A stretch of DNA of 47,190 bases from a virus: the IMG/VR virus record IMGVR_UViG_3300045911_000356, positions 1 to 47,190 of that record; one strand, written 5' to 3'. The notes under the pieces were generated by a model. The model was not told the DNA's origin and made no database searches. It worked only from the letters and a program-made list of their open reading frames with translations. Within the stretch, counting starts at the first letter, position 1. The number at the start of each line of letters is the position of its first letter. The position numbers were made by a program, and so were the translations under genes. Positions 17,925 to 38,130 of the stretch are shown in pieces.

Positions 17925-19019
17925 ATGAGATTATTTAAATTTTTTGAATTCAAAGAATCAGATTTAGAGCCTATAAAATCCTTTAGAGTAAAGGACAACC
18001 TAAATACTAAATTATGGTCTAATTTTGAACTAGATGAGTCTGTTAGAGAACAATTATTACAAATAGCTCAGGATTTCTATGAATCAACTGAAATAAGTGC
18101 TGATGTTTTGGATATTGTTCTTTGTGGTTCATTATGTAATTATAACTGGTCTGAAAAATATTCAGATTATGATTTGCATATTATTATTAAATATTCAGAT
18201 GTTGATGAGAACAAGGAATTAGTTACACAACTTTGTGACTATGCTAAGAAAATATGGAATGAGCAACATGATATAACCATAAAGGGATATGAGGTTGAGG
18301 TTGCTATACAAGACGAACAAGATTTAAAGGATTCTATTGCTTCTGGTAGAATGGGTGGAGTTTTCTCACTTATGAAAAATAAGTGGATAAAGAGACCCGA
18401 TAAGATAGAATTTGAACCCGATGAGGATTTAATTGCTGAAAAAGCTAAGACTATAATGCAGAAAATAGATGATATTGAAGAACAAGTTGATGAAGATAAG
18501 TATTCCGCCTTCAAAGAGAAGATAGATAAGGTTTGGAAGAAAGTTAAAGATTATAGAAAGAGTGGTTTAGAAAGTGAAGGAGGTGAATACTCAATTGGTA
18601 ATTTAGTTTTTAAGTTACTTAGAAGAAATGGGTATATCAATAAAGTAATGAAACTTAAAAGATATGCTTATGATAAACAGTTTGAATCTTCTGAACACGA
18701 CAATGATGTATTGAGACTATTATATCTTATAGATCAATTGGATAAAGAAATGTCAAAGAAATCCGATGAGAGTTGGTCAATGAGTATATCATATGAGTAT
18801 GATGAGTCAAAAGATTATATTGATATACACTATTCATCACATGGTTATTCTGAGGGATTCTCTGATGATTTAAGAGTTTTCTACAAGGAAAGACCAATTA
18901 GAGTTTTAAGAGATAATAGTGGTAGAACTGTTTTTGGTGACTATGATAATAGTAGAGAAGAGAAATTTAATTCATTTGATGAATTAATAGATAATATAAA
19001 AGATGAATTTGGATTATGA
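17925..19019 (+). CDS. nucleotidyltransferase-fold protein with capsid-targeting-like leader
   Basis: A 364-residue protein. I choose the ATG at 17925 over an in-frame start 26 codons upstream because the upstream part would encode an implausible Phe/Tyr/Ile-rich stretch across the promoter motif, and because the chosen start gives the leader MRLFKFFEFKE, which fits the shared N-terminal family (F-x-E at 9-11). The segment GSLCNYNWSEKYSDYDLHII near residues 65-84 has the GS...SDxD pattern of pol beta-type nucleotidyltransferases, with the Asp pair as likely metal ligands. The C-terminal third is charged and includes DELIDNIKDEFGL. It overlaps the next gene by ATGA. If the leader is a capsid-targeting sequence, this enzyme travels in the virion. 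Target unknown. Confidence 0.72.
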   Translation: MRLFKFFEFKESDLEPIKSFRVKDNLNTKLWSNFELDESVREQLLQIAQDFYESTEISADVLDIVLCGSLCNYNWSEKYSDYDLHIIIKYSDVDENKELVTQLCDYAKKIWNEQHDITIKGYEVEVAIQDEQDLKDSIASGRMGGVFSLMKNKWIKRPDKIEFEPDEDLIAEKAKTIMQKIDDIEEQVDEDKYSAFKEKIDKVWKKVKDYRKSGLESEGGEYSIGNLVFKLLRRNGYINKVMKLKRYAYDKQFESSEHDNDVLRLLYLIDQLDKEMSKKSDESWSMSISYEYDESKDYIDIHYSSHGYSEGFSDDLRVFYKERPIRVLRDNSGRTVFGDYDNSREEKFNSFDELIDNIKDEFGL

Positions 19020-20431: not shown

Positions 20432-20814
20432 GGGGATGTAATAGAATTGATTCGCGGAGTAAGTGTAGTTATGCAGGCATCGGTTGGTTAAATATCCGAT
20501 TAATAAATTAGTTAACAAATTTGTAAACGGCAACGTTAATGAAGTAGGTACTCGTGAAGATTTAGTAGCGACTCTACAAAACAATTTGTTCTTGGTAGAA
20601 GAACTAGCAACTGCGTAATATCAGAGGCTATAAAAAAAATTCTCCAACTGTTTCACACAGTTAAAAAAAGGTGAGGCTTTTTGTTTTTACTTGTTAGAAG
20701 TCTTTTCGAAATCAAGTAAATATTTTGTAAGTTTAGAAAAATTTTACTAAGCCTGTGAACGAATAAAGACACTTAACTGAGGAAGACACGATGGGCAGTT
20801 CATCGTCATCTCCA
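20432..20814 (+). ncRNA. ssrA: transfer-messenger RNA (tmRNA)
   Basis: tmRNA rescues stalled ribosomes by acting as alanyl-tRNA and then as a short mRNA. The acceptor stem is GGGGATG (20432-20438) with CATCTCC (20807-20813), fully paired with a G.U at the third pair, the alanine identity element. Helix H2 pairs GTT-AT-GCAGGC (from 20468) with GCCTGT-G-AAC (from 20751), matching the known H2 layout. Pseudoknot PK1 is ATCGG/CCGAT plus GTTAA/TTAAC (20479-20518). A single open frame starts at GGC 20529 and stops at TAA 20616-20618. Further stems (AACTGT/ACAGTT, TTTACTTG/CAAGTAAA) fit downstream pseudoknots. The T-arm is odd: ACGAT/ATCGT with a 9-nt loop. CCA is not encoded. No smpB is seen in the window, so host SmpB is presumably used. 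Confidence 0.85.
20529..20618 (+). other. tmRNA tag reading frame, 29 codons plus stop
   Basis: The only frame open after PK1: the other two stop at 20524-20526 and 20537-20539. It begins GGC, with A at -4 as in other tmRNAs, and encodes GNVNEVG at the start and VEELATA at the end. Most bacterial tags have 8-15 codons and end in LAA, so both length and terminus are unusual; Mycoplasma tags are a known long class. Confidence 0.7.
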
Positions 20815-23642: not shown

Positions 23643-24146
23643 TTAGAAAGGTATGTCTTTCTCTTCTTTAGAACTATCTTCTTCATCATTAGCATCGTTT
23701 TCTTCTTCTCCATCATATACAAGTTCATCTTTATATGTGAAATTGAATGTTAATATAGGTCTACCATCTTTAGTTTCCCATAATTCGAATTCAGATTCAT
23801 ATTGTAATAGTATGTCATTTTTAAGCTTTTTAGCTAAATCAAATACACTCAGTATATTTTTCATTTTTTCTCTTTTGTTGAGAACTACATATATAGATAT
23901 ATTTAGACCCTCACTATCAACATCGGCTTCTATACCAACATTTTTGAATAATGATCTAATTAGATATAGTAGATGTTGCATATCCTCACTTTGTATATAC
24001 TCATCTTCCTTATCGGGATCATATCCAGCATGAATTGATTTTTTTGAATAGTTTGGTCTTCCATATAAGAAGCCATCTGAATTATCATACTCGATCTCTA
24101 CTGGATCGATTTCTTCGAATAATTTTTTATATTTTTTTAATTTCAT
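23643..24146 (-). CDS. capsid-targeting-like leader plus SSB-like acidic DIPF tail, 167 aa
   Basis: Two end signals flank an unrecognised body. The N-terminus MKLKKYKKLFEEI carries L-F-E at 9-11, as in the shared leader. The last 25 residues are strongly acidic and end KEEKDIPF, the form of the bacterial SSB C-terminal tip (acidic tail then DIPF) that docks RecO, RecQ, PriA, exonuclease I and the Pol III chi subunit. The body (20-140) is alpha/beta and not an obvious OB-fold. It may be an SSB-tip mimic delivered with the DNA to recruit or block host repair nucleases, or a phage SSB. It is the last gene of the minus-strand head operon and directly abuts the peptidase gene. Confidence 0.6.
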   Translation of the reverse strand: MKLKKYKKLFEEIDPVEIEYDNSDGFLYGRPNYSKKSIHAGYDPDKEDEYIQSEDMQHLLYLIRSLFKNVGIEADVDSEGLNISIYVVLNKREKMKNILSVFDLAKKLKNDILLQYESEFELWETKDGRPILTFNFTYKDELVYDGEEENDANDEEDSSKEEKDIPF

Positions 24147-25508
24147 TTATTTCAATTCAATTTTTAGATATGTGTTTGAGAATGTAAGGTCGGGGTCTAA
24201 TTTATGTTTTCTTAAAATAACAGACATTGATGATAATGTATTGTGTATTTCATCTATGCTAGAATCTTCTAAATCTATCCTTATAAATACAACGCCTTCA
24301 TTACCAACAACTTTTGTTTCTGAATCAAATATAGACTCTTTAATATCCTTAATTAAGTGCTTGTATTTTTTTAATAATTCTTCATCAATTCCAACTTTTC
24401 TAACAGTTGGTAATGAGTTCCAATTAACTCTTAGAGTAGCTTGACATAACTTTATTAGATAAGTCATATTTTGGCTTTCATCTCTAGTATGTTCTTTATT
24501 ATAACCAACAGAAACATTTGTGCATTCTGGTATTTGATCAATAAATGAAGCTGAATCAGTATATACACCAGTTGGATCTAATGATAATTTTAGACCACTT
24601 TTATTAAATTCTTTACACAATGCTGTTGCGAACTCATTTGAACAGCATTTTCTACCCATTTGTTGCGTGATAACAGAGTGTGTTTTTCTTCTATCAAAAG
24701 AGATACATCTTTTGATGTTTTTTAAGTATTCTACTTCATCATACACATATGATAATTGATGAGATCCTATTCCACCTCTTTCTTCCCCAATGAAGAAATA
24801 GTATAGTCCTGGTATATTATGAGCCATCATATACATCATAATAGTTACACCTGATTTATCATCAGCTCCTAATATAGTATTACCATCTGTTATGATATAT
24901 TCATTTCCTTCATGTATTACACTAAATAGATTAACTTCTGATTGATTTCTATCAGCCGTATCTAAGTGAGATGTGAACATTGTCTCAGGCTTATCACCTA
25001 TTATATAATAGTAGTTACCAACAACATCTTTTTTGAGGTTTTGTGGTAAGAATTTCAATACTTCATGTTCGTGTCCGTGCGGGTACGTCATTGTCACCAT
25101 TGACAGAAATGTTGATCTAACGTCTTTTGGGTTATATTTGAATTCACCCACTGTTATAGGTTTACCTCCAAATCTACTTTCTACTGTATCGCCTTTTACA
25201 CCAGTTAATTTATGTATTCTATTTACGAATTTAGCGATATCCGACCTCATTATTGTTCCTTTGAAGAAATATTCAGCGAACCTATCTATCCTCATTGGAC
25301 GAACCTTGTCATCAATTGTTACATCAAATGAACCAGGTGTTCTGGATAAATCTACTTTAGTTATTTTTAGACCATTATGATACTCAGCATCCGGTTCTGT
25401 CATCCATAGTAACTCGAAAGCCAAATATAGATTTTCACTTTCTAGTTTTTTTAATACACCTATAAGTGCTTTAGAGAATTCTATCTTTGGTAAACTGTTT
25501 TCTGACAT
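24147..25508 (-). CDS. M20/M28/M42-type zinc metallopeptidase
   Basis: A 453-residue protein whose C-terminal two thirds is a co-catalytic zinc aminopeptidase-like fold. Likely ligands and catalytic residues: H181 and D183 in TSHLDTADR, D216 in GADDKSG, E242/E243 in IGEERGG, D272 in SFDRR and H340 in GYNKEHTRDE. All five zinc-ligand positions are therefore present, which argues for activity. Relatives cleave N-terminal residues or small peptides. The first 130 residues are not part of the fold and are unrecognised. A phage peptidase next to head genes might finish degrading scaffold peptides or recycle host peptides; this is inference. A phage promoter motif lies 25 nt upstream. Confidence 0.8.
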   Translation of the reverse strand: MSENSLPKIEFSKALIGVLKKLESENLYLAFELLWMTEPDAEYHNGLKITKVDLSRTPGSFDVTIDDKVRPMRIDRFAEYFFKGTIMRSDIAKFVNRIHKLTGVKGDTVESRFGGKPITVGEFKYNPKDVRSTFLSMVTMTYPHGHEHEVLKFLPQNLKKDVVGNYYYIIGDKPETMFTSHLDTADRNQSEVNLFSVIHEGNEYIITDGNTILGADDKSGVTIMMYMMAHNIPGLYYFFIGEERGGIGSHQLSYVYDEVEYLKNIKRCISFDRRKTHSVITQQMGRKCCSNEFATALCKEFNKSGLKLSLDPTGVYTDSASFIDQIPECTNVSVGYNKEHTRDESQNMTYLIKLCQATLRVNWNSLPTVRKVGIDEELLKKYKHLIKDIKESIFDSETKVVGNEGVVFIRIDLEDSSIDEIHNTLSSMSVILRKHKLDPDLTFSNTYLKIELK

Positions 25509-25545: not shown

Positions 25546-26238
25546 TTAAACATCAATTTCGTTGGCATTTATGTAGTCAACTTTTACTTGACCATTATTC
25601 ATCCCCGGCTCTTTTTTGACAAATTTTCTTTTACAGTAAACAACCGTTACTTTATTATCCTTTGGTGATTTACTATTTTTTTTGGCAATTGATGCTGCTT
25701 TTTTTATTACTTCGTTTGTTGGTAATTTATCATTTACTCTTATTACTATGTGACTACCAGGTACACCTTTTGCATGCATCCATATATCTTCTTTATTAGC
25801 TATATTGAATGTTAAATGGTCATTTGACAAAGCATCTTTACCTATATAGATTGTAAATCCGTCAATTTCCATTTTTTTAATATTAGGAAATTTATTTTTT
25901 TTAGACTCATTAAATAAACTAAAATTCATTATTTTACTTTCTTTTATGTTATCCAAACAAAAATCAGTGAATTTATCCCAGTCACCTTTTTCTATATTAC
26001 CAATTTTTAATGATATCAATTCTTCTTCACCTTTAAATATATAATAATTTGTTTCGTTTTCTTCGATTCTCTCCTCAACACAACTATAAGGTGGATTATT
26101 AAAATCTTCAATATCCATATCATCATATATTAATTTATTACAAATATATGCGTATATCCCAGTTAAGTTATTAAAGTATTTTATTATTATATTTTGATCG
26201 TCATTCCGATTTTCAATTAATAGATATTTGCCACTCAT
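25546..26238 (-). CDS. NFACT-R (RqcH/NEMF-type) domain protein, 230 aa
   Basis: The C-terminal half is a well conserved NFACT-R domain: the segment GFTIYIGKDALSNDHLTF (127-144), then EDIWMHAKGVPGSHIVIR (150-167), then KVTVVYCKRKFVKKEPG (196-212) follow the family pattern, including DxWxHxKGxPGSH. In RqcH and NEMF this part helps bind obstructed 50S subunits and tRNA and supports Ala tailing. The N-terminal NFACT-N domain and coiled coil are absent; residues 1-120 are unrelated and unrecognised. It may therefore capture or block the host rescue pathway rather than replace RqcH. The motif TTAATATATA lies exactly 4 nt before the ATG, and a terminator separates it from the capsid gene, so it is an independent late transcript. 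Confidence 0.86.
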   Translation of the reverse strand: MSGKYLLIENRNDDQNIIIKYFNNLTGIYAYICNKLIYDDMDIEDFNNPPYSCVEERIEENETNYYIFKGEEELISLKIGNIEKGDWDKFTDFCLDNIKESKIMNFSLFNESKKNKFPNIKKMEIDGFTIYIGKDALSNDHLTFNIANKEDIWMHAKGVPGSHIVIRVNDKLPTNEVIKKAASIAKKNSKSPKDNKVTVVYCKRKFVKKEPGMNNGQVKVDYINANEIDV

Positions 26239-26242
26239 AATG

Positions 26243-26252
26243 TATATATTAA
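26243..26252 (-). promoter_or_regulatory. phage promoter motif TTAATATATA, 4 nt before an ATG (NFACT-R gene)
   Basis: Minus strand reads TTAATATATACATTATG, so exactly 4 nt separate the motif from the start codon at 26238. Confidence 0.65.
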
Positions 26253-26273: not shown

Positions 26274-26299
26274 AAAAAAGACTCCGAAGAGTCTTTTTT
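26274..26299 (-). terminator. capsid-gene terminator with UUCG tetraloop
   Basis: On the minus strand the stem AAAAAAGACTC/GAGTCTTTTTT closes a TTCG loop, giving the very stable C(UUCG)G tetraloop. T4 is known to use such loops. It lies 19 nt after the gp23 stop. Confidence 0.93.
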
Positions 26300-26317: not shown

Positions 26318-28009
26318 TTAGTTAAGTAAACCTTTACTGTCATCAACTTTGATAGTCATGAACTGCTTTTGAGGGAACCAACCTACCTCAGCGATTGCAT
26401 AACGGCTTCTTAATAACATTCTTGGAGCGAATGTTGCTTCAGAAATAACAGTAATAGACTGAGCCATTAAGTAAGGTACGAAAATGATACCTGGTTGGTC
26501 AGGATTGTTCTTTCTACCAAGAACGATTCTGTTATCGTTATACTTCATATATGGATCAACGTAGATAGAGATATCTCCGATAGAACCTACTGGGTATAAT
26601 TGACCTTGAGCATTCATCTTAGATTTAACTGGGTTAATTGTATAACCTGCAATATCTTGAAGAGCCGCAGCAAGACCTCCGTTTGTGATTAGATACTGAG
26701 CAGGACCAATACGACCTTCAGTTGCTATGTAGTTCGAAGCATGAGCTATCTTAGTGATAAGTTTTCTTTGAACTGCATGTGTAGTTTCACCACCAACGTT
26801 AGTACCAGCGTAAGCTGTATCTAAGTCAAATATTGTCATATTTGGGATGTTATTTAAACCAGAATTAGAAAGAGGAGCTGATTCTCTGTTAAGATCACCC
26901 ATTTCAAAAATCTTAGCAACTATTTGCTTAGAGATTGTTTGAGATAATTCGTTAACAAGTATAGATTCCATTTTTTGAACTATATCCATACCTGTGTTAG
27001 CTTTAATGTCTTCGATTTCAGTCCTTCTTAATGCTGAACTTACTTCAATAGTACCAACTGCAATTGTTTTAGAAGAAATCTTAGGACCGATAACACCTGC
27101 GTAGCTATCATCATCTTTTTGACGATCCATTGGGTAGTTTCCAGCGAATCCTGTTGTGCTTGACATCCAGTTAGCTGAAAATCCTGGGATATGATCTTCA
27201 AGAGCTGATACTAATTCAACTGTTAAGTTACCAGAACCAGAAGTTACTGATGCTGTACCGATTGTTGTGATTTGATCAACCATTGATTGTGTTGGATTGA
27301 ATGTGTTTCTTGTTTGATCGAATGACCAAAGTGTGCTTGCTGTATTAACCGCGGTGTGAGCTGTGTTAAATTGTCTGTAAGCTCTGAACATTGGGTATCC
27401 GTCAATACGAGAGAAACCTAAGAACTCAACAATACCAGCTTTTGAACCAGTTGGCTCAGTAGCTGTATTTACAGTAGGACCGTAGATATTTGTAAACCAT
27501 CTACCAGTTAAACCACCTTGAGTTTGTTGACCAGCGTTTGCAGTTAAAGTAGCGTTAACTAAAGATCTTTCAGTTGCATTAGCAATATTTAATTTGAAAA
27601 CTTGTGGTCTTTCATCTTGAGCCCCTAAACGAGTATCATCGTATTGGAAGTCGATGTAAAGTAAATCGATTTTTGGACCCGGAGAAGGCTTAACAGCTAC
27701 TAAATCAAGACCAATTGTATGAGCTGCAATTTTCATAGCTACTGGTAAAAGGTTCTGACCAACATCACCTGAACCAACTAATGTTGAGTTATTACCTATT
27801 GTTTGACCAGCTAATAATGATGGTTGAGGAGCAACAACTGCACCCATACCTGCTAAGTTAGATGCGTTAACGTAAGCGTTTTCGTTGATAGAGTGATACT
27901 CAGCGTATTCAGACATCCAATCAATTTTCTCACTGTTAACACCCATGTTCTCAAGAACTGGAGACCATTTCTTGATTGCTTTTTGTTTGTCTATTCTAAT
28001 GTGTGACAT
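26318..28009 (-). CDS. gp23: major capsid protein, T4 gp23-like
   Basis: A 563-residue HK97-fold major capsid protein of the T4 type. Supporting blocks are KKWSPVLENMGV near the N-terminus (as in gp23 KWKPLLEG), IAVGTIEVSSALRRTEIEDI in the E-loop/spine region, a GDISIYVDPYMKYND strand at about 478-492 and the C-terminal RSRYAIAEVGWFP. In T4 the protease gp21 removes the first 65 residues after an L/I-x-E-type site; here candidate sites lie around residues 32-45 (SEYAE, SINEN). It follows the protease-scaffold gene in the conserved order portal, protease, capsid. A TTTATATATA box 32 nt upstream and a strong terminator suggest a separate, abundant late mRNA. Confidence 0.95.
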   Translation of the reverse strand: MSHIRIDKQKAIKKWSPVLENMGVNSEKIDWMSEYAEYHSINENAYVNASNLAGMGAVVAPQPSLLAGQTIGNNSTLVGSGDVGQNLLPVAMKIAAHTIGLDLVAVKPSPGPKIDLLYIDFQYDDTRLGAQDERPQVFKLNIANATERSLVNATLTANAGQQTQGGLTGRWFTNIYGPTVNTATEPTGSKAGIVEFLGFSRIDGYPMFRAYRQFNTAHTAVNTASTLWSFDQTRNTFNPTQSMVDQITTIGTASVTSGSGNLTVELVSALEDHIPGFSANWMSSTTGFAGNYPMDRQKDDDSYAGVIGPKISSKTIAVGTIEVSSALRRTEIEDIKANTGMDIVQKMESILVNELSQTISKQIVAKIFEMGDLNRESAPLSNSGLNNIPNMTIFDLDTAYAGTNVGGETTHAVQRKLITKIAHASNYIATEGRIGPAQYLITNGGLAAALQDIAGYTINPVKSKMNAQGQLYPVGSIGDISIYVDPYMKYNDNRIVLGRKNNPDQPGIIFVPYLMAQSITVISEATFAPRMLLRSRYAIAEVGWFPQKQFMTIKVDDSKGLLN

Positions 28010-28092: not shown

Positions 28093-30171
28093 TTAGATGT
28101 TTTTGAATCTTTCCATTATAGCTTGGACTTCTTTATCAGAAAGTTTATCTTCTTGTATTAAACTTTCATGTGACACAAGCTTCTTAGTAACAGATTCATT
28201 TTTTTTGAGATTTCTAGTTAACCAGAAATGCTCAATTTGATTTTCAGTTTTTAATACATCTTCTGGGTATAATCTAGCTTGTGATAAGATAGACTTTTTA
28301 GAAGATTCATTTAACTGATTCCAGATTGGCTTAATGTTTTCAGGCATCAATCTGATTATTCTTTCTTCAAGAGATTCATTCTTAGATGAAAGTGCTTCAG
28401 CGATCAAAGAAAGTACATCTTTCTGTGTGAAATAACTTCTTTCGTTTATGTGAAGTTTAACAGTTTCTTGTTCTTCTTCTGATAGTGCATAAAAGCTATC
28501 AACTTGTGACTTGTTCAAGAATTTTAAGAAATTCAAGTCAGTTGATTCAGAAACTTTACGTTTTTTAGCTTCTTCAATTAATTTATCAATAGATTTAGAT
28601 AATTCTGTATCTGATTTGCCTTCGTATGTTGATTCTTCTTCATCTTTATTATCTTCCTCTTCTTCTTTATTATAAACCTTTTCTGAGTTAACTTTAGAAA
28701 CACCATTTAATTCACAAGGTTCACATACTTCTTTTTCCTCTTCTTCCTCTTCTATATTTTCAAAACCAGCGTCTTGCAATGAAGGGAAAGATTCTTCAAC
28801 AGATTCAAATAATTTACCACTGTTTAATTTCTCAACGATCATTCCTTGATAAGAAATAGATTTGTCAAGATTTTCAGCGATATATTCAGAATATGCAATG
28901 TTGTCATCTAAATGTTCGGCAATGTACTCAGAGTAAGCAATGTTACCTTCGATATGTTCTGCTAAATATTCAGAATATGCAATTGAGTTATCAACATGTT
29001 CAGCAATATATTCAGAATAGGAAATATTCTTGTCAAGATTTTCAGCTATATACTCAGAGTAAGCAATATTCTTATCTAAATTCTCAGCTAAATACTCAGA
29101 GTAAGCGATGTTCTTATCAAGATTTTCAGCAATATATTCAGAATAAGAAATATTCTTGTCAAGATTTTCAGCAATATATTCAGAATAAGAAATATTCTTA
29201 TCTAAATTCTCAGCTAAATACTCAGAATATTCAATGTTTTTGTCAAGATTCTCAGCAAGATATTCAGAGTAGTTAATTGCTTTCTCTAGATTCTCAGCTA
29301 AGTAGTCATTGTGCTTAATAAGCTTTTCAGCTGTTTCTTTTAGAGATTTATTTTCATTAACAACAACCTGTACTTTTTCAGCCAAGTAATCAAGATATTT
29401 AATCACTTGTGAGTTAGTTTTGTTTAATTCTTCATAGTATTCAATTAACTGCTCAAGTTTTTTAGGGTTCATATTACCCTTAGTGATGGCACTTTTAACT
29501 TCTTTTTTAGTAGAAGCTATTTCATTAACTAAGTACTGAGAGTATTCAGTTAATTGTTTTTTTGTAACATAATCGTTCTTATTCATGTTAAATATCTCAT
29601 TTATTTTGGACTCATCGGACATTTCATATATCCTAAAGTTAGATTTTGGGTTTGTGTAACCTAGAGACTCATTAAGAACTTTAACACTCATTTTAGCAGA
29701 TGAGAAACCCGGATCCGCAACAATGTCATAAGTGAATAGCTTCTTTAATGAAACAGATCCATCAGATTCGGTAATACCTGCTGCTCTGGAAGAAACAAAA
29801 ATAGGACACCCGTCATCGACAAGAGCCTTAGCTTCTTTACCCCAGTAAGTATTAAGTAATTTGATTTCACCTTCTACTTTGTTTGATTCTTTTACATAAG
29901 AAGCTTTGGTAATAATGTGAGATGCTCTTGAAAGAGAAGTGTCAAATACATCGGGGTGATCAAACTCCCCATATACAACACCTAAGCTTTTAATTCTTTC
30001 ATTAAGTTCATCAAGAGCAGGAAGGAATTTATCAGCGGTATATATTCTTTCGTTACGGTTTTTAACTCCGAACTCGGTAAAAGTACCGCCTAAAACATAA
30101 TCCTTCTTACCAGCACTGTTCTCTCTTATAAGAGAGCTAGTTGAATTTTCTACAATTAAAACTGGTTTCAT
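28093..30171 (-). CDS. gp21: prohead protease fused to scaffold-like coiled coil (gp21-gp22-like)
   Basis: A 692-residue protein in the position of T4 genes 21 and 22. Residues 1-175 are a gp21-type serine protease: likely catalytic His72 in VYGEFDHPD and Ser127/128 in FVSSRAAG, with the substrate-site segment GGTFTEFGVKNRNERIY near 28-44. T4 gp21 is about 210 residues and scaffold gp22 is a separate gene; here about 500 further residues follow. Residues 291-447 are a 14-residue repeat (YSEYIAENLDKNIS-type, two heptads, coiled coil), each with LAE, IAE or IVE, which fits the T4 protease site L/I-x-E. Then comes an acidic stretch (450-520) and a helical C-terminus. It would drive core assembly and later destroy itself. 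Confidence 0.9.
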   Translation of the reverse strand: MKPVLIVENSTSSLIRENSAGKKDYVLGGTFTEFGVKNRNERIYTADKFLPALDELNERIKSLGVVYGEFDHPDVFDTSLSRASHIITKASYVKESNKVEGEIKLLNTYWGKEAKALVDDGCPIFVSSRAAGITESDGSVSLKKLFTYDIVADPGFSSAKMSVKVLNESLGYTNPKSNFRIYEMSDESKINEIFNMNKNDYVTKKQLTEYSQYLVNEIASTKKEVKSAITKGNMNPKKLEQLIEYYEELNKTNSQVIKYLDYLAEKVQVVVNENKSLKETAEKLIKHNDYLAENLEKAINYSEYLAENLDKNIEYSEYLAENLDKNISYSEYIAENLDKNISYSEYIAENLDKNIAYSEYLAENLDKNIAYSEYIAENLDKNISYSEYIAEHVDNSIAYSEYLAEHIEGNIAYSEYIAEHLDDNIAYSEYIAENLDKSISYQGMIVEKLNSGKLFESVEESFPSLQDAGFENIEEEEEEKEVCEPCELNGVSKVNSEKVYNKEEEEDNKDEEESTYEGKSDTELSKSIDKLIEEAKKRKVSESTDLNFLKFLNKSQVDSFYALSEEEQETVKLHINERSYFTQKDVLSLIAEALSSKNESLEERIIRLMPENIKPIWNQLNESSKKSILSQARLYPEDVLKTENQIEHFWLTRNLKKNESVTKKLVSHESLIQEDKLSDKEVQAIMERFKNI
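28831..29301 (-). repeat. 42-bp in-frame repeat encoding 14-residue cleavage-site units
   Basis: Twelve units with LAE/IAE/IVE at residues 291, 305, 319, 333, 347, 361, 375, 389, 403, 417, 431 and 445 (first residue), exact period 14. A further LAE at 263 keeps phase (28 before 291). DNA copies differ at silent sites, so the repeat is old or held by selection. The ORF on the opposite strand is a shadow. Confidence 0.9.
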
Positions 30172-34024: not shown

Positions 34025-34030
34025 GTAGTG

Positions 34031-35617
34031 ATGACAACAAATGAAAAAATTATAGAAAGGATTAGGTTAATACATGGTGATAAATATTCACTTGATAAAT
34101 TTATTTATTCATCTTATAAAGAAAAGGTAACTCTCGTTTGTAAATTACATGGTGATTTTAGTATAAGTCTAAGTAATTTGATAAGTAATAAAAGGGGATG
34201 TCCAACTTGTGGAAAATTAAAATCAAAAAACTCCAATAGATCAAATACTGAGGAGTTTATTTCAAAGGCAAATAAAGTGCATAATTTTAAATATAGATAT
34301 GATAATGTTGATTATTATAATTGGAAGAAAAAAGTTTCAATAATATGTGAAAAACATGGTGAATTTAAACAATCGCCATTTAACCACCTAAGAGGAAGTG
34401 GGTGCCCTAAATGCAATAAAGGAAGACCCCCTATGAAAAAAAATATTGAAACACAAGGTATAGATGATAAAATATCATATAGATTAAAAAAGTTTATAGA
34501 AATTTCAAATAAAGTGCATAACAACAAATATGATTACTCAAATGTTATATATTACTCTTCCAATAAAAAGGTAAAAATAATATGTAAAAAACACGGTGAA
34601 TTTGAACAAACACCAAGTCACCATAAAAGAGGCAATGGGTGCCCATCTTGTTCATATGAAAACAGTTTCGGGTCAAGAATAAAGACATCCGACTTTATAT
34701 CAATTTCTAAAAATAGACACCAAGGTTATTATAGTTATAATAAATCTATATACTTGGGAAATAAAGAGAAAATAATAATAACTTGTCCAATACACGGTGA
34801 TTTTAAACAATTACCTAAGTATCATATGAATGGTGGTGGTTGTCCAAAATGTAATATAGGAAAACATGGAAGAGGTGGTGGTAAAGGAAATAAAAAATTA
34901 AAATACACAACAGATGAATTTATAAAAATTTGTAATAATTTACACAACAATAAATATGATTACTCAGAAAGTAAGTATAACGGATCAAAAAGTAAAATAA
35001 AAGTTAATTGCTTAAAACATGGAACATTCGATGTTTTAGCATATCATCATATGAATGGGGTAGGTTGTGTTTTTTGTTCAATAGACGATAAAAAGAGAAC
35101 AAGAGAAGAATTAATAAATGAATTAAATATTATACATAACAATAAATACGAATATATTTTTCTCGATGATTTTATATCTACAAAGGATGATATAAAAATA
35201 CTATGCCCAACACATGGTGAATTTTTTCAAAATGTAGAAGTTCATTTAAGGGGTAGTGGATGCACATTATGTAAAACCAAAAGTAGGGGAGAAATTTTAA
35301 TAAAAAATATACTAAATAAATATAATATAGATTTTACAAAAGAAAAAAAATTTGATAATCTTAGTAGATTTAGATTTGATTTTTGGGTACCAAAGTTAAA
35401 TACAGTGATAGAATTTGATGGAAAACACCACTTTAAATCTATACCATTTTTTGGTGGTAAAAATACATTTGAAAAAATTAAGAAAAACGATTTAATCAAA
35501 AATACCTATTGTGTAGAAAATAACATAAACTTAATAAGAATAAGTTATAGTGACTTGAAAAATATTGAAGAAATAATAAAAAAACAAATAATAGAAAATG
35601 TTAAACTCCAAACCTAA
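34031..35617 (+). CDS. homing-endonuclease-like protein with six zinc-ribbon repeats and a PD-(D/E)XK nuclease domain
   Basis: A 528-residue protein in two parts. Residues 1-410 hold about six repeats of some 60-70 residues with the pattern CxxHGxF...(H)...GxGCPxC (for example ICEKHGEF then GSGCPKC), probable zinc-binding DNA-recognition units. The last 100 residues form a VSR/PD-(D/E)XK-like nuclease: RFRFDFWVPKLNTVIEFDGK followed by HH supplies the Asp and the E-x-D-G-K-H core, and a NLIRISYSD strand follows. Such proteins cut DNA site-specifically and copy themselves into vacant sites. The 3' end overlaps the gp4 start by 20 nt, so the element sits directly ahead of gp4. A GTG one codon upstream is an alternative start. 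Confidence 0.78.
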   Translation: MTTNEKIIERIRLIHGDKYSLDKFIYSSYKEKVTLVCKLHGDFSISLSNLISNKRGCPTCGKLKSKNSNRSNTEEFISKANKVHNFKYRYDNVDYYNWKKKVSIICEKHGEFKQSPFNHLRGSGCPKCNKGRPPMKKNIETQGIDDKISYRLKKFIEISNKVHNNKYDYSNVIYYSSNKKVKIICKKHGEFEQTPSHHKRGNGCPSCSYENSFGSRIKTSDFISISKNRHQGYYSYNKSIYLGNKEKIIITCPIHGDFKQLPKYHMNGGGCPKCNIGKHGRGGGKGNKKLKYTTDEFIKICNNLHNNKYDYSESKYNGSKSKIKVNCLKHGTFDVLAYHHMNGVGCVFCSIDDKKRTREELINELNIIHNNKYEYIFLDDFISTKDDIKILCPTHGEFFQNVEVHLRGSGCTLCKTKSRGEILIKNILNKYNIDFTKEKKFDNLSRFRFDFWVPKLNTVIEFDGKHHFKSIPFFGGKNTFEKIKKNDLIKNTYCVENNINLIRISYSDLKNIEEIIKKQIIENVKLQT

Positions 35618-36853: not shown

Positions 36854-37942
36854 ATGAATAAAATAATGCTAGAGTATATTTGGTTGGATGGTAATAACCC
36901 TCAACAACTAAGAAGTAAGACTAAAATCGTTGATAAAGTAGATACTTTTCTAGCTAAGGATTATCCTGTTTGGTCATTTGATGGTAGTTCAACCAATCAA
37001 GCTAACTCTGGAAAGGGAAAGAATACAGATTGTTTATTGAAACCTGTATATGTCACATTGGATCCATTTAGAGGTGGTAATAATAGATTAGTTCTGTGTG
37101 AAGTGTTGAATCCTGATTTAACACCGCATTCGTCAAATAATCGACATAAATTAGTTTCCAAATTAAAAGAATTGAATATTGACGAGAATTCAACACCTAT
37201 GTCATTATTGCCTTGGTTTGGATGGGAGCAAGAATATACTTTGACACACAAACCAGTTTCGCCATTTTCAGAGGGTGTTGGATTGCCACTTGGCTTTTCA
37301 CCTGGTATGTCACCAAGACCACAAGGTGATTACTATTGCGGAATTGGATCAGATTCTGTTGTTGGTCGTGAAATTGTAGAAGAACACATGCGTAAGTGCA
37401 TTGAGATAGGATTAAATATTTCTGGTATAAATTCTGAAGTTTTATTGGGTCAATGGGAATATCAAATAGGACCTGTGAAACCACTTGATGGTTCTGATCA
37501 ACTATGGATATCAAGATACATATTACAAAGAGTTGCTGAGAAACACAATGTCAATGTTTCATTACACCCAAAACCTATTGAGGGTGATTGGAACGGAACG
37601 GGATGTCATGTTAATTTCTCAACTAATGAGATGAGAAGTGAAGGTGGTATAGATATTATCGAAGAAACAATGAAGAAGTTAGAAAAAGCACACAATGAAC
37701 ACATCAGTGTTTATGGTTTACATAATGAAAAGAGATTAACAGGCAAACATGAGACATCTGGTATACATGAATTTAGTTATGGATACAGTACTAGAGATAC
37801 ATCTATAAGAATCCCAGCTCAGGCTATTATAGATAAGAAAGGGTATTTTGAAGACAGAAGACCAGCTTCTAATTGTGATCCTTATTTAGTGTCTAGTAGG
37901 ATGTTACAGACAGTTTATAGTAAAGTAGAAGAGTTAGTATAA
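36854..37942 (+). CDS. glnA: glutamine synthetase, type II (eukaryote-like)
   Basis: A full-length 362-residue GSII that makes glutamine from glutamate, ammonia and ATP. Diagnostic blocks: YIWLDG (8-13), WSFDGSSTNQA (40-50), WFGWEQEYTL (121-130, metal-binding E125/E127), PQGDYYCGIG (156-165), GINSEVLLGQWEYQIG (191-206, E195/E202), GDWNGTGCHVNFST (244-257), NEKRLTGKHET (291-301), SIRIP (317-321) and YFEDRRPASNCDPY (331-344). No catalytic residue appears lost. GSII is the short, eukaryote-type enzyme; many Bacteroidetes rely on GSIII, so the phage copy is unusual. It may sustain nucleotide synthesis under nitrogen limitation or have been adapted for another ligation. A degenerate motif (TTAATATAAT) precedes it and a strong terminator follows. 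Confidence 0.95.
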   Translation: MNKIMLEYIWLDGNNPQQLRSKTKIVDKVDTFLAKDYPVWSFDGSSTNQANSGKGKNTDCLLKPVYVTLDPFRGGNNRLVLCEVLNPDLTPHSSNNRHKLVSKLKELNIDENSTPMSLLPWFGWEQEYTLTHKPVSPFSEGVGLPLGFSPGMSPRPQGDYYCGIGSDSVVGREIVEEHMRKCIEIGLNISGINSEVLLGQWEYQIGPVKPLDGSDQLWISRYILQRVAEKHNVNVSLHPKPIEGDWNGTGCHVNFSTNEMRSEGGIDIIEETMKKLEKAHNEHISVYGLHNEKRLTGKHETSGIHEFSYGYSTRDTSIRIPAQAIIDKKGYFEDRRPASNCDPYLVSSRMLQTVYSKVEELV

Positions 37943-38130
37943 TCAAAAAACCCACTCAATTGAGTGGGTTTTTTTATTCCATATACTTTTTTTATTGCAT
38001 TTCTTCTTTTTGTTATTCTCAGTGGTACTAGTTTAATGTGATTTGCTACAGATGGTGGTTTTATGACAATATCGAATGTTTTAATATTAACAATACTAAG
38101 ATTAGATTGAGTGTAATCCTTGTCCGTCAT
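37915..38130 (-). CDS. possible small protein, 71 aa, coupled to the sigma gene
   Basis: An ORF starting MTDKDYTQSNLSIVNIKTF inside the end of the sigma gene (29-nt overlap, different frame). Residues to about 55 (PPSVANHIKLVPLRITKRRN) look like real protein. The last 18 codons run through the glnA terminator stem and into the glnA 3' end, so the gene may be genuine but extended, or a remnant. Confidence 0.35.
   Translation of the reverse strand: MTDKDYTQSNLSIVNIKTFDIVIKPPSVANHIKLVPLRITKRRNAIKKVYGIKKPTQLSGFFDYTNSSTLL
37945..37975. terminator. strong bidirectional terminator after glnA
   Basis: A nearly perfect 15+15 nt palindrome (AAAAAACCCACTCAA / TTGAGTGGGTTTTTT) 3 nt after the glnA stop, with A-run and T-run flanks so it can work in both directions. 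Confidence 0.92.

Follow-up and report, generated by a model that had tools for sequence, protein, structure and literature searches.

A stand-alone NFACT-R protein of large phages with a capsid-targeting-like peptide: a candidate for packaging and injection

Why would a phage keep a single domain of the ribosome quality control protein RqcH beside its capsid gene, and when and on what would that domain act? The question is raised by a gene for a protein of 230 amino acids in a 47,190-base IMG/VR record, which also carries genes for a gp23-type capsid protein, an S77-type protease and a portal. This whole stretch of DNA is called the window here, and its relevant features are collected in Table 1. 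In Pfam searches the protein matches NFACT-R_1 (PF05670) over residues 124–220, with an E-value of 6.6e-15 and 56 bits against a cut-off of 29.8. It lies over the curated cut-off and keeps the DxWxHxK-G-PGSH core, and is thus a member of the NFACT-R family; the match to NFACT-R_2 (1.2e-5) falls slightly below the cut-off of that family. A phmmer comparison with Bacillus subtilis RqcH (2.6e-16) covers RqcH 448–550, which is the R domain only, and Pfam gives no match to NFACT-N or to the coiled coil. The sequence-only reading had described a stand-alone NFACT-R domain without these two parts, and that description holds. Membership in RqcH/NEMF proper would call for NFACT-N, HhH and coiled-coil/M regions, and of the whole architecture the R domain alone is matched in the window protein. 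No PHROGs family was found for it.

Table 1. Features of the window around the NFACT-R gene (^ marks a predicted cleavage site)
Feature	Position	Strand	Details
NFACT-R gene, whole	25546..26238	-	ATG start, 230 aa; acidic N-terminal segment, cleavable linker and NFACT-R domain
Acidic N-terminal segment, residues 1-111, predicted propeptide	25906..26238	-	charge -12.5
Capsid-targeting-like segment KIMNFSLFNE^S, residues 102-111	25906..25935	-	predicted prohead-protease site after E111
Predicted mature product, residues 112-230	25549-25905	-	charge about +9.7, pI 9.7
NFACT-R domain, residues 124-220	25579..25869	-	PF05670; AF2 pLDDT about 90
AATATATA box, late-type promoter-like	26243..26250	-	12 bases upstream of NFACT-R ATG
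Terminator-like hairpin, capsid/NFACT-R intergenic	26280..26299	-	from sequence; same place in two relatives (L031, L032)
Major capsid protein, gp23-like	26318..28009	-	PF07068 4.4e-29; processing-type site INE^N
Prohead protease, S77-like, fused to long C-terminal part	28093..30171	-	phrog_207 1.6e-29; PF03420 2e-4, below cut-off
Peptidase-like protein, conserved partner	24147..25508	-	phrog_4191 1.8e-67; immediately downstream in nearly all loci
Small protein with start MKLKKYKKLFE, second tagged gene of the operon	23643..24146	-	profile score 14.8; position conserved
Divergent tmRNA	20432..20814	+	opposite strand, about 5.7 kb from NFACT-R gene; tag frame 20529-20618, GNVNEVGTREDLVATLQNNLFLVEELATA*

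The gene is not peculiar to this record. Scanning viral contigs twice and phage records once yielded about 85 loci, among them the genomes LR756502 (642 kb) and LR745206 (634 kb); the NFACT-R gene has been conserved across more than 80 phage loci. In most of them the order is prohead protease, capsid, NFACT-R, peptidase, a small protein starting MKLKKYKxxFE, and then often a tmRNA. The phage domains form one clade, separate from the sampled cellular RqcH with a tree support of 1.0, where the cellular set was chosen by pattern and is mostly from Firmicutes. The domain is under purifying selection, with a median dN/dS of about 0.15 over 57 pairs. Further records labelled as phage (H3–H12; Enterococcus, Listeria, Helicobacter and faecal records) were set aside as likely host or host-derived FbpA. 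They show about 36–51% identity, one is annotated as FbpA and nearly all are without annotation. Elsewhere in the window, positions 34028–35617 give a strong match to an HNH/homing-type endonuclease (phrog_559, 4.3e-95), standing between the portal region and later genes, and positions 37942–38005 form a strong bidirectional terminator hairpin (AAAACCCACTCAATTGAGTGGGTTTT) whose weak Rfam matches to Leu/Phe leaders cover essentially the terminator stem only.

The strongest clue to the role of the protein, which the sequence-only reading had missed, is a short peptide that precedes the domain, in a gene beside the capsid and prohead protease genes, and it points to a protein that would be packaged and injected. 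In every family member inspected, a hydrophobic-x-E sequence followed by a small residue or K stands right before the domain core. Most members are about 130 amino acids long and start with this peptide (e.g. MIKKYNYFFE, MKYIKSFNE or MRLKKYSQFNE, then S, G or A and the domain), so their N-terminal peptide ends in hydrophobic-x-E^small, as in T4-type capsid-targeting (CTS) cargo. The peptide of T4 ipII and ipIII is MKTYQEFIAE^A, to which the NFACT-R peptides are similar (e.g. MIKKYNYFFE^S). Capsid-targeting sequences of T4 direct their proteins to the prohead and are cleaved off by gp21 (PMC3012670, PMC5694885). In SPN3US, propeptides of more than 100 residues are cut at xE sites and the proteins are injected (PMC5694885).

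In the window protein, and likewise in long-form relatives, the peptide is internal and not N-terminal. In an alignment of 14 sequences E111 is invariant and the remainder of the N terminus is variable. Confidence in the structure model is lowest at the linker (pLDDT 26 vs about 90 in the domain), and the predicted cut after E111 would divide the acidic part of the protein from the basic part. An acidic segment of about 105 residues is found in a minority of the family, namely in this phage and a few relatives; the other members lack it and begin directly at the short peptide. These 105 residues match no known family and have no second copy in LR756502. By eye they resemble repeated modules in one relative (L021). 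That relative and another one encode longer NFACT-R proteins (L021 9335–10612, L022 7890–9194) with strings of modules split by xE^ sites (FE^N, LNE^N, FE^S, LNE^S), which look like a polyprotein of internal head proteins.

If the peptide is a packaging signal, other proteins of the same genome may carry it. A profile trained on the NFACT-R peptides alone was run on 909 open reading frames of LR756502; calling took the longest frame from an ATG in 20-kb pieces, a simple rule that leaves the counts approximate. A score of at least 10 was reached by 62 of the 909 proteins, compared to 3.7 (at most 10 in 50 rounds) after shuffling of residues 2–25, and by 0.17% of internal methionines. Paralogy as the source of the common peptide was excluded by clustering the proteins after removal of the first 22 residues: 57 clusters are positive (52 vs 2.8 in shuffled sequences when one protein per cluster is taken), and shared descent of the protein bodies is therefore no explanation. 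In T4, none of 407 open reading frames reaches a score of 10 with this profile; ipII and ipIII score 2.9, at a rank of about 36 of 407, and ipI is not recovered. The relation to T4 therefore lies in the layout and the xE rule, not in close sequence similarity. The same rule can be read in the capsid protein: each of the 63 examples found carries INE^N close to the N terminus, and N also occupies P2 of the tag in 51 of 84 cases. The gp23 protein of T4 is also processed near its N terminus. Thus a gp21-type protease and a gp23-type capsid protein with the same cleavage rule, as read from sequence, occur in the genome together with the tagged proteins, and cleavage at the xE sites is expected from the S77-like prohead protease.

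What else is tagged can be illustrated by 67 proteins with such N termini that were selected by hand, 60 of them from LR756502 and seven from the window. The set includes an RNA ligase of the T4 Rnl1 type (MKKLHRYNSFIKE^S), a CCA-adding enzyme (MIITKYAKFLE^S) and a 2'-5' phosphoesterase matching LigT/Acb1 (MIKKYLEFMKE^S), as well as a DHH protein, an RNase_T exonuclease and a PPK2 kinase, the last of which was not traced to an open reading frame. Since the set was picked partly by eye, it shows contents and no enrichment for RNA functions. Dozens of unrelated proteins of LR756502 (L033–L065), and those at 17925, 23643, 42896, 44878 and 45782 of the window, start with MK(Y/H)LKxYKIFE^S or MxxKKYxxFINE^S. 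The proteins with the common N-terminal peptide can be taken as a candidate list of packaged proteins.

The timing of expression can be judged from the promoter. The sequence-only reading had assigned a late-type promoter to the gene, and this is supported: the AATATATA box in front of the ATG belongs to a motif class common to structural genes, and in the window it also precedes the protease, portal and fibre genes. Over LR756502 and the window, 57 genes have the box at exactly -12, and it is enriched upstream of tagged genes when these are defined by a looser tag pattern (odds ratio 4.4, p 2e-15). In the same two sequences the distance of the box from the ATG peaks sharply at two values, -12 and about -30. 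Should transcription begin some 10 bases downstream, genes of the -12 class would yield almost leaderless transcripts.

A late promoter can also be understood in another way, namely that the protein is a late cytoplasmic ribosome-rescue factor working with a phage tmRNA, with the xE peptide as some other tag or as a translation leader. The tmRNA itself was part of the sequence-only reading, and the window does contain one, with an acceptor stem and a conserved tag frame. ARAGORN and Rfam (RF00023) at standard settings found no tmRNA at threshold in the window, and relaxed ARAGORN settings gave only noise; the gene was instead located by reading the gap between genes and comparing tags. It has 383 bases, its ends pair as GGGGAUG/CAUCUCC, and its tag frame (NEV..EDLV..L.NN) is homologous to the tags of tmRNAs called by ARAGORN or Rfam in relatives (L019–L022 and others). 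It was missed by the tools probably because its T arm lacks the usual loop with TTCGA. The phage tags are long, about 27–30 amino acids, with the pattern NEV..EDLV..L.NN... (seen in the window, L016, L018–L022 and L150–L210), and end in ATV, AVV, AVA, ATA and similar, not in ALAA; they may not be degrons of the ClpXP type.

Most relatives have a tmRNA of this single, distinct tag family some 2 kb downstream from the NFACT-R gene, which speaks for a joint role in rescue. A cellular hint in the same direction is a 129-aa stand-alone NFACT-R in a Spirochaetes MAG, directly followed by a GGQ release-factor-like open reading frame (L095 3004–3810). However, where enough flank was available the tag was found in 45 of 70 loci and none lay near the gene in the other 25, a few of which cannot judge the matter because in the window and in two relatives (L173/L177) the tmRNA sits 5–6 kb off on the other strand. 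No tmRNA was found in the 642 kb of LR756502 either. The NFACT-R gene is therefore kept without the tmRNA, and the two are not obligate partners. In addition, dozens of unrelated proteins carry the peptide at their extreme N terminus under the xE rule of the capsid, and a translation leader is therefore no explanation for it. On balance, late cytoplasmic rescue seems improbable to us.

In the sequence-only reading, the lone domain might block or divert the RqcH of the host, which would take place on the 50S subunit. The clear match to the R domain of RqcH in both sequence and fold would suit such a competitor, but the parts with which RqcH grips tRNA and uL11 (NFACT-N and the M domain) are absent from it. 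In RqcH, tRNA is selected by the DR motif of NFACT-N (PMC8373112), and this motif is missing from the window protein together with NFACT-N. The likely hosts matter as well. For the Mahaphage genomes of 634 and 642 kb, which we infer to be LR745206 and LR756502, Bacteroidetes hosts were predicted (PMC7162821), and rqcH was detected in no more than 404 of the 1,956 genomes surveyed from the FCB group, to which this phylum belongs, where the column order was taken from the gene list of the figure legend (PMC11633108). Inhibition of RqcH is unlikely as a general role because most of the surveyed genomes of the Bacteroidota group are without rqcH. This suggestion is thus not supported, and we regard it as highly improbable.

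A more serious competitor grants the packaging and denies the ribosome: the protein would be structural, a basic dsDNA-binding protein that condenses or ejects the genome and never reaches ribosomes. The mature domain is basic, with a phage-specific basic helix, the gene stands beside the capsid gene in most relatives, and in T4 the internal proteins touch DNA through their lysines (PMC3012670). In structure prediction, which the sequence-only reading had proposed as a check, the AF2 fold of the domain matches both RqcH and dsDNA-bound CCDC25. In Foldseek, CCDC25 including its dsDNA complexes is matched at 4e-8 with an rmsd of 2.6–2.7 over about 120 columns (2.6 for the dsDNA-bound form), and the window protein has the lone NFACT-R fold of the CCDC25 type. 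Phages and cells have in common the NFACT-R signature DxWxHxK-GxPGSH, SK and VxK. The conserved cellular K-P-G-F-V is N-D-G-Q-V in the phage domain, and one helix has turned basic; the target may therefore differ from the cellular one. These two changes, with the fold match to CCDC25 on dsDNA, keep the DNA alternative alive, and action on DNA is possible. Against a purely structural protein, the median charge of the domain over the phage family is modest (+2.1 vs +0.8 in cells), the retained signature suggests that an ancestral RNA-related surface is still in use, and several other tagged proteins are RNA enzymes, not packing proteins. We consider it rather unlikely. Because the RqcH signature is retained and RNA-repair enzymes carry the same tag, tRNA or the 50S subunit is favoured as the probable target, which is more weakly inferred than the packaging.

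The explanation that we prefer, with moderate confidence, is that of a late internal head protein, processed by the protease and injected with the DNA, whose domain most likely works on tRNA or the 50S subunit. The NFACT-R gene would be expressed late, and a T4-type capsid-targeting peptide, N-terminal in most relatives, would carry its product into the prohead. In this phage the targeting peptide would end an acidic propeptide of 111 residues, and the S77-like prohead protease would cut after xE (FNE111^S112), leaving a basic NFACT-R protein of 119 residues that is packed and injected with the DNA. In the host the domain would most likely bind tRNA or obstructed 50S subunits, just as within RqcH, and aid translation from the first minutes, alongside the tagged proteins (in LR756502, the RNA ligase, CCA-adding enzyme and Acb1/LigT-like phosphoesterase) and a tmRNA that is made later. 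Packaging, cleavage and injection are all predicted from sequence. A protein that is packaged and injected would therefore act at the start of infection, and late expression would serve packaging. More tentatively, a lineage of huge phages of Bacteroidota may pre-load its heads with dozens of proteins by means of the T4-like peptide, including a kit for translation and tRNA repair (NFACT-R, RNA ligase, CCA-adding enzyme, Acb1/LigT-like), with rescue and counter-defence beginning at DNA entry and NFACT-R as a strongly conserved cargo in the capsid operon.

If this is true, a domain of ribosome quality control has been turned into an effector delivered by the virion, and one short peptide predicts the head-carried proteins among the about 900 of a 640-kb phage. 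A direct list of candidates for injection, with roles in anti-defence and translation, would follow for phages of which most knowledge comes from metagenomes. Late expression for packaging and late action, which are easily confused from sequence alone, are also kept apart in this way. Among the open-access papers searched, no phage NFACT-R protein in such a role and no paper on CCDC25 together with NFACT were found.

Among known systems, RqcH/Rqc2/NEMF share the NFACT-R domain, the signature residues and the fold with the phage protein. Unlike them, it has no NFACT-N, HhH, coiled coil or M domain, its K-P-G-F-V is changed, it has the basic helix and it is joined to a cleavable targeting-like peptide. 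CCDC25, a eukaryotic stand-alone NFACT-R protein and dsDNA sensor, is likewise a lone NFACT-R without NFACT-N and matches in fold over 120 columns, whereas the phage protein shows no coiled-coil segment, has about 28% identity to it and stands among viral head genes. Short viral proteins in BFVD, such as M1HME1 with 110 amino acids, are alike in having a short lone NFACT-R fold, this being a fold match only; M1HME1, M1ICD2 and A0A0P0YM59 place such folds in other viral entries, where independent capture is possible. With ejection proteins of the SPN3US/phiKZ type there is the likeness of propeptides of more than 100 residues that are cut at xE sites, followed by injection (PMC5694885), which for the present protein is read from sequence, while the phage lineage and the cargo are different. 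The internal proteins IPI–IPIII of T4 have a similarly built short N-terminal peptide (in the window protein it is internal), rich in Lys and aromatic residues and ending in hydrophobic-x-E^small, with a gp21/S77-type protease, a gp23-type capsid protein and late-type expression. They differ in that the cargo here is a nucleic-acid-binding domain common to cells, that the xE site is mostly F/Y/I-N-E and not I-A-E, and that this phage has a propeptide of 111 residues, with the tag found on dozens of proteins of one genome.
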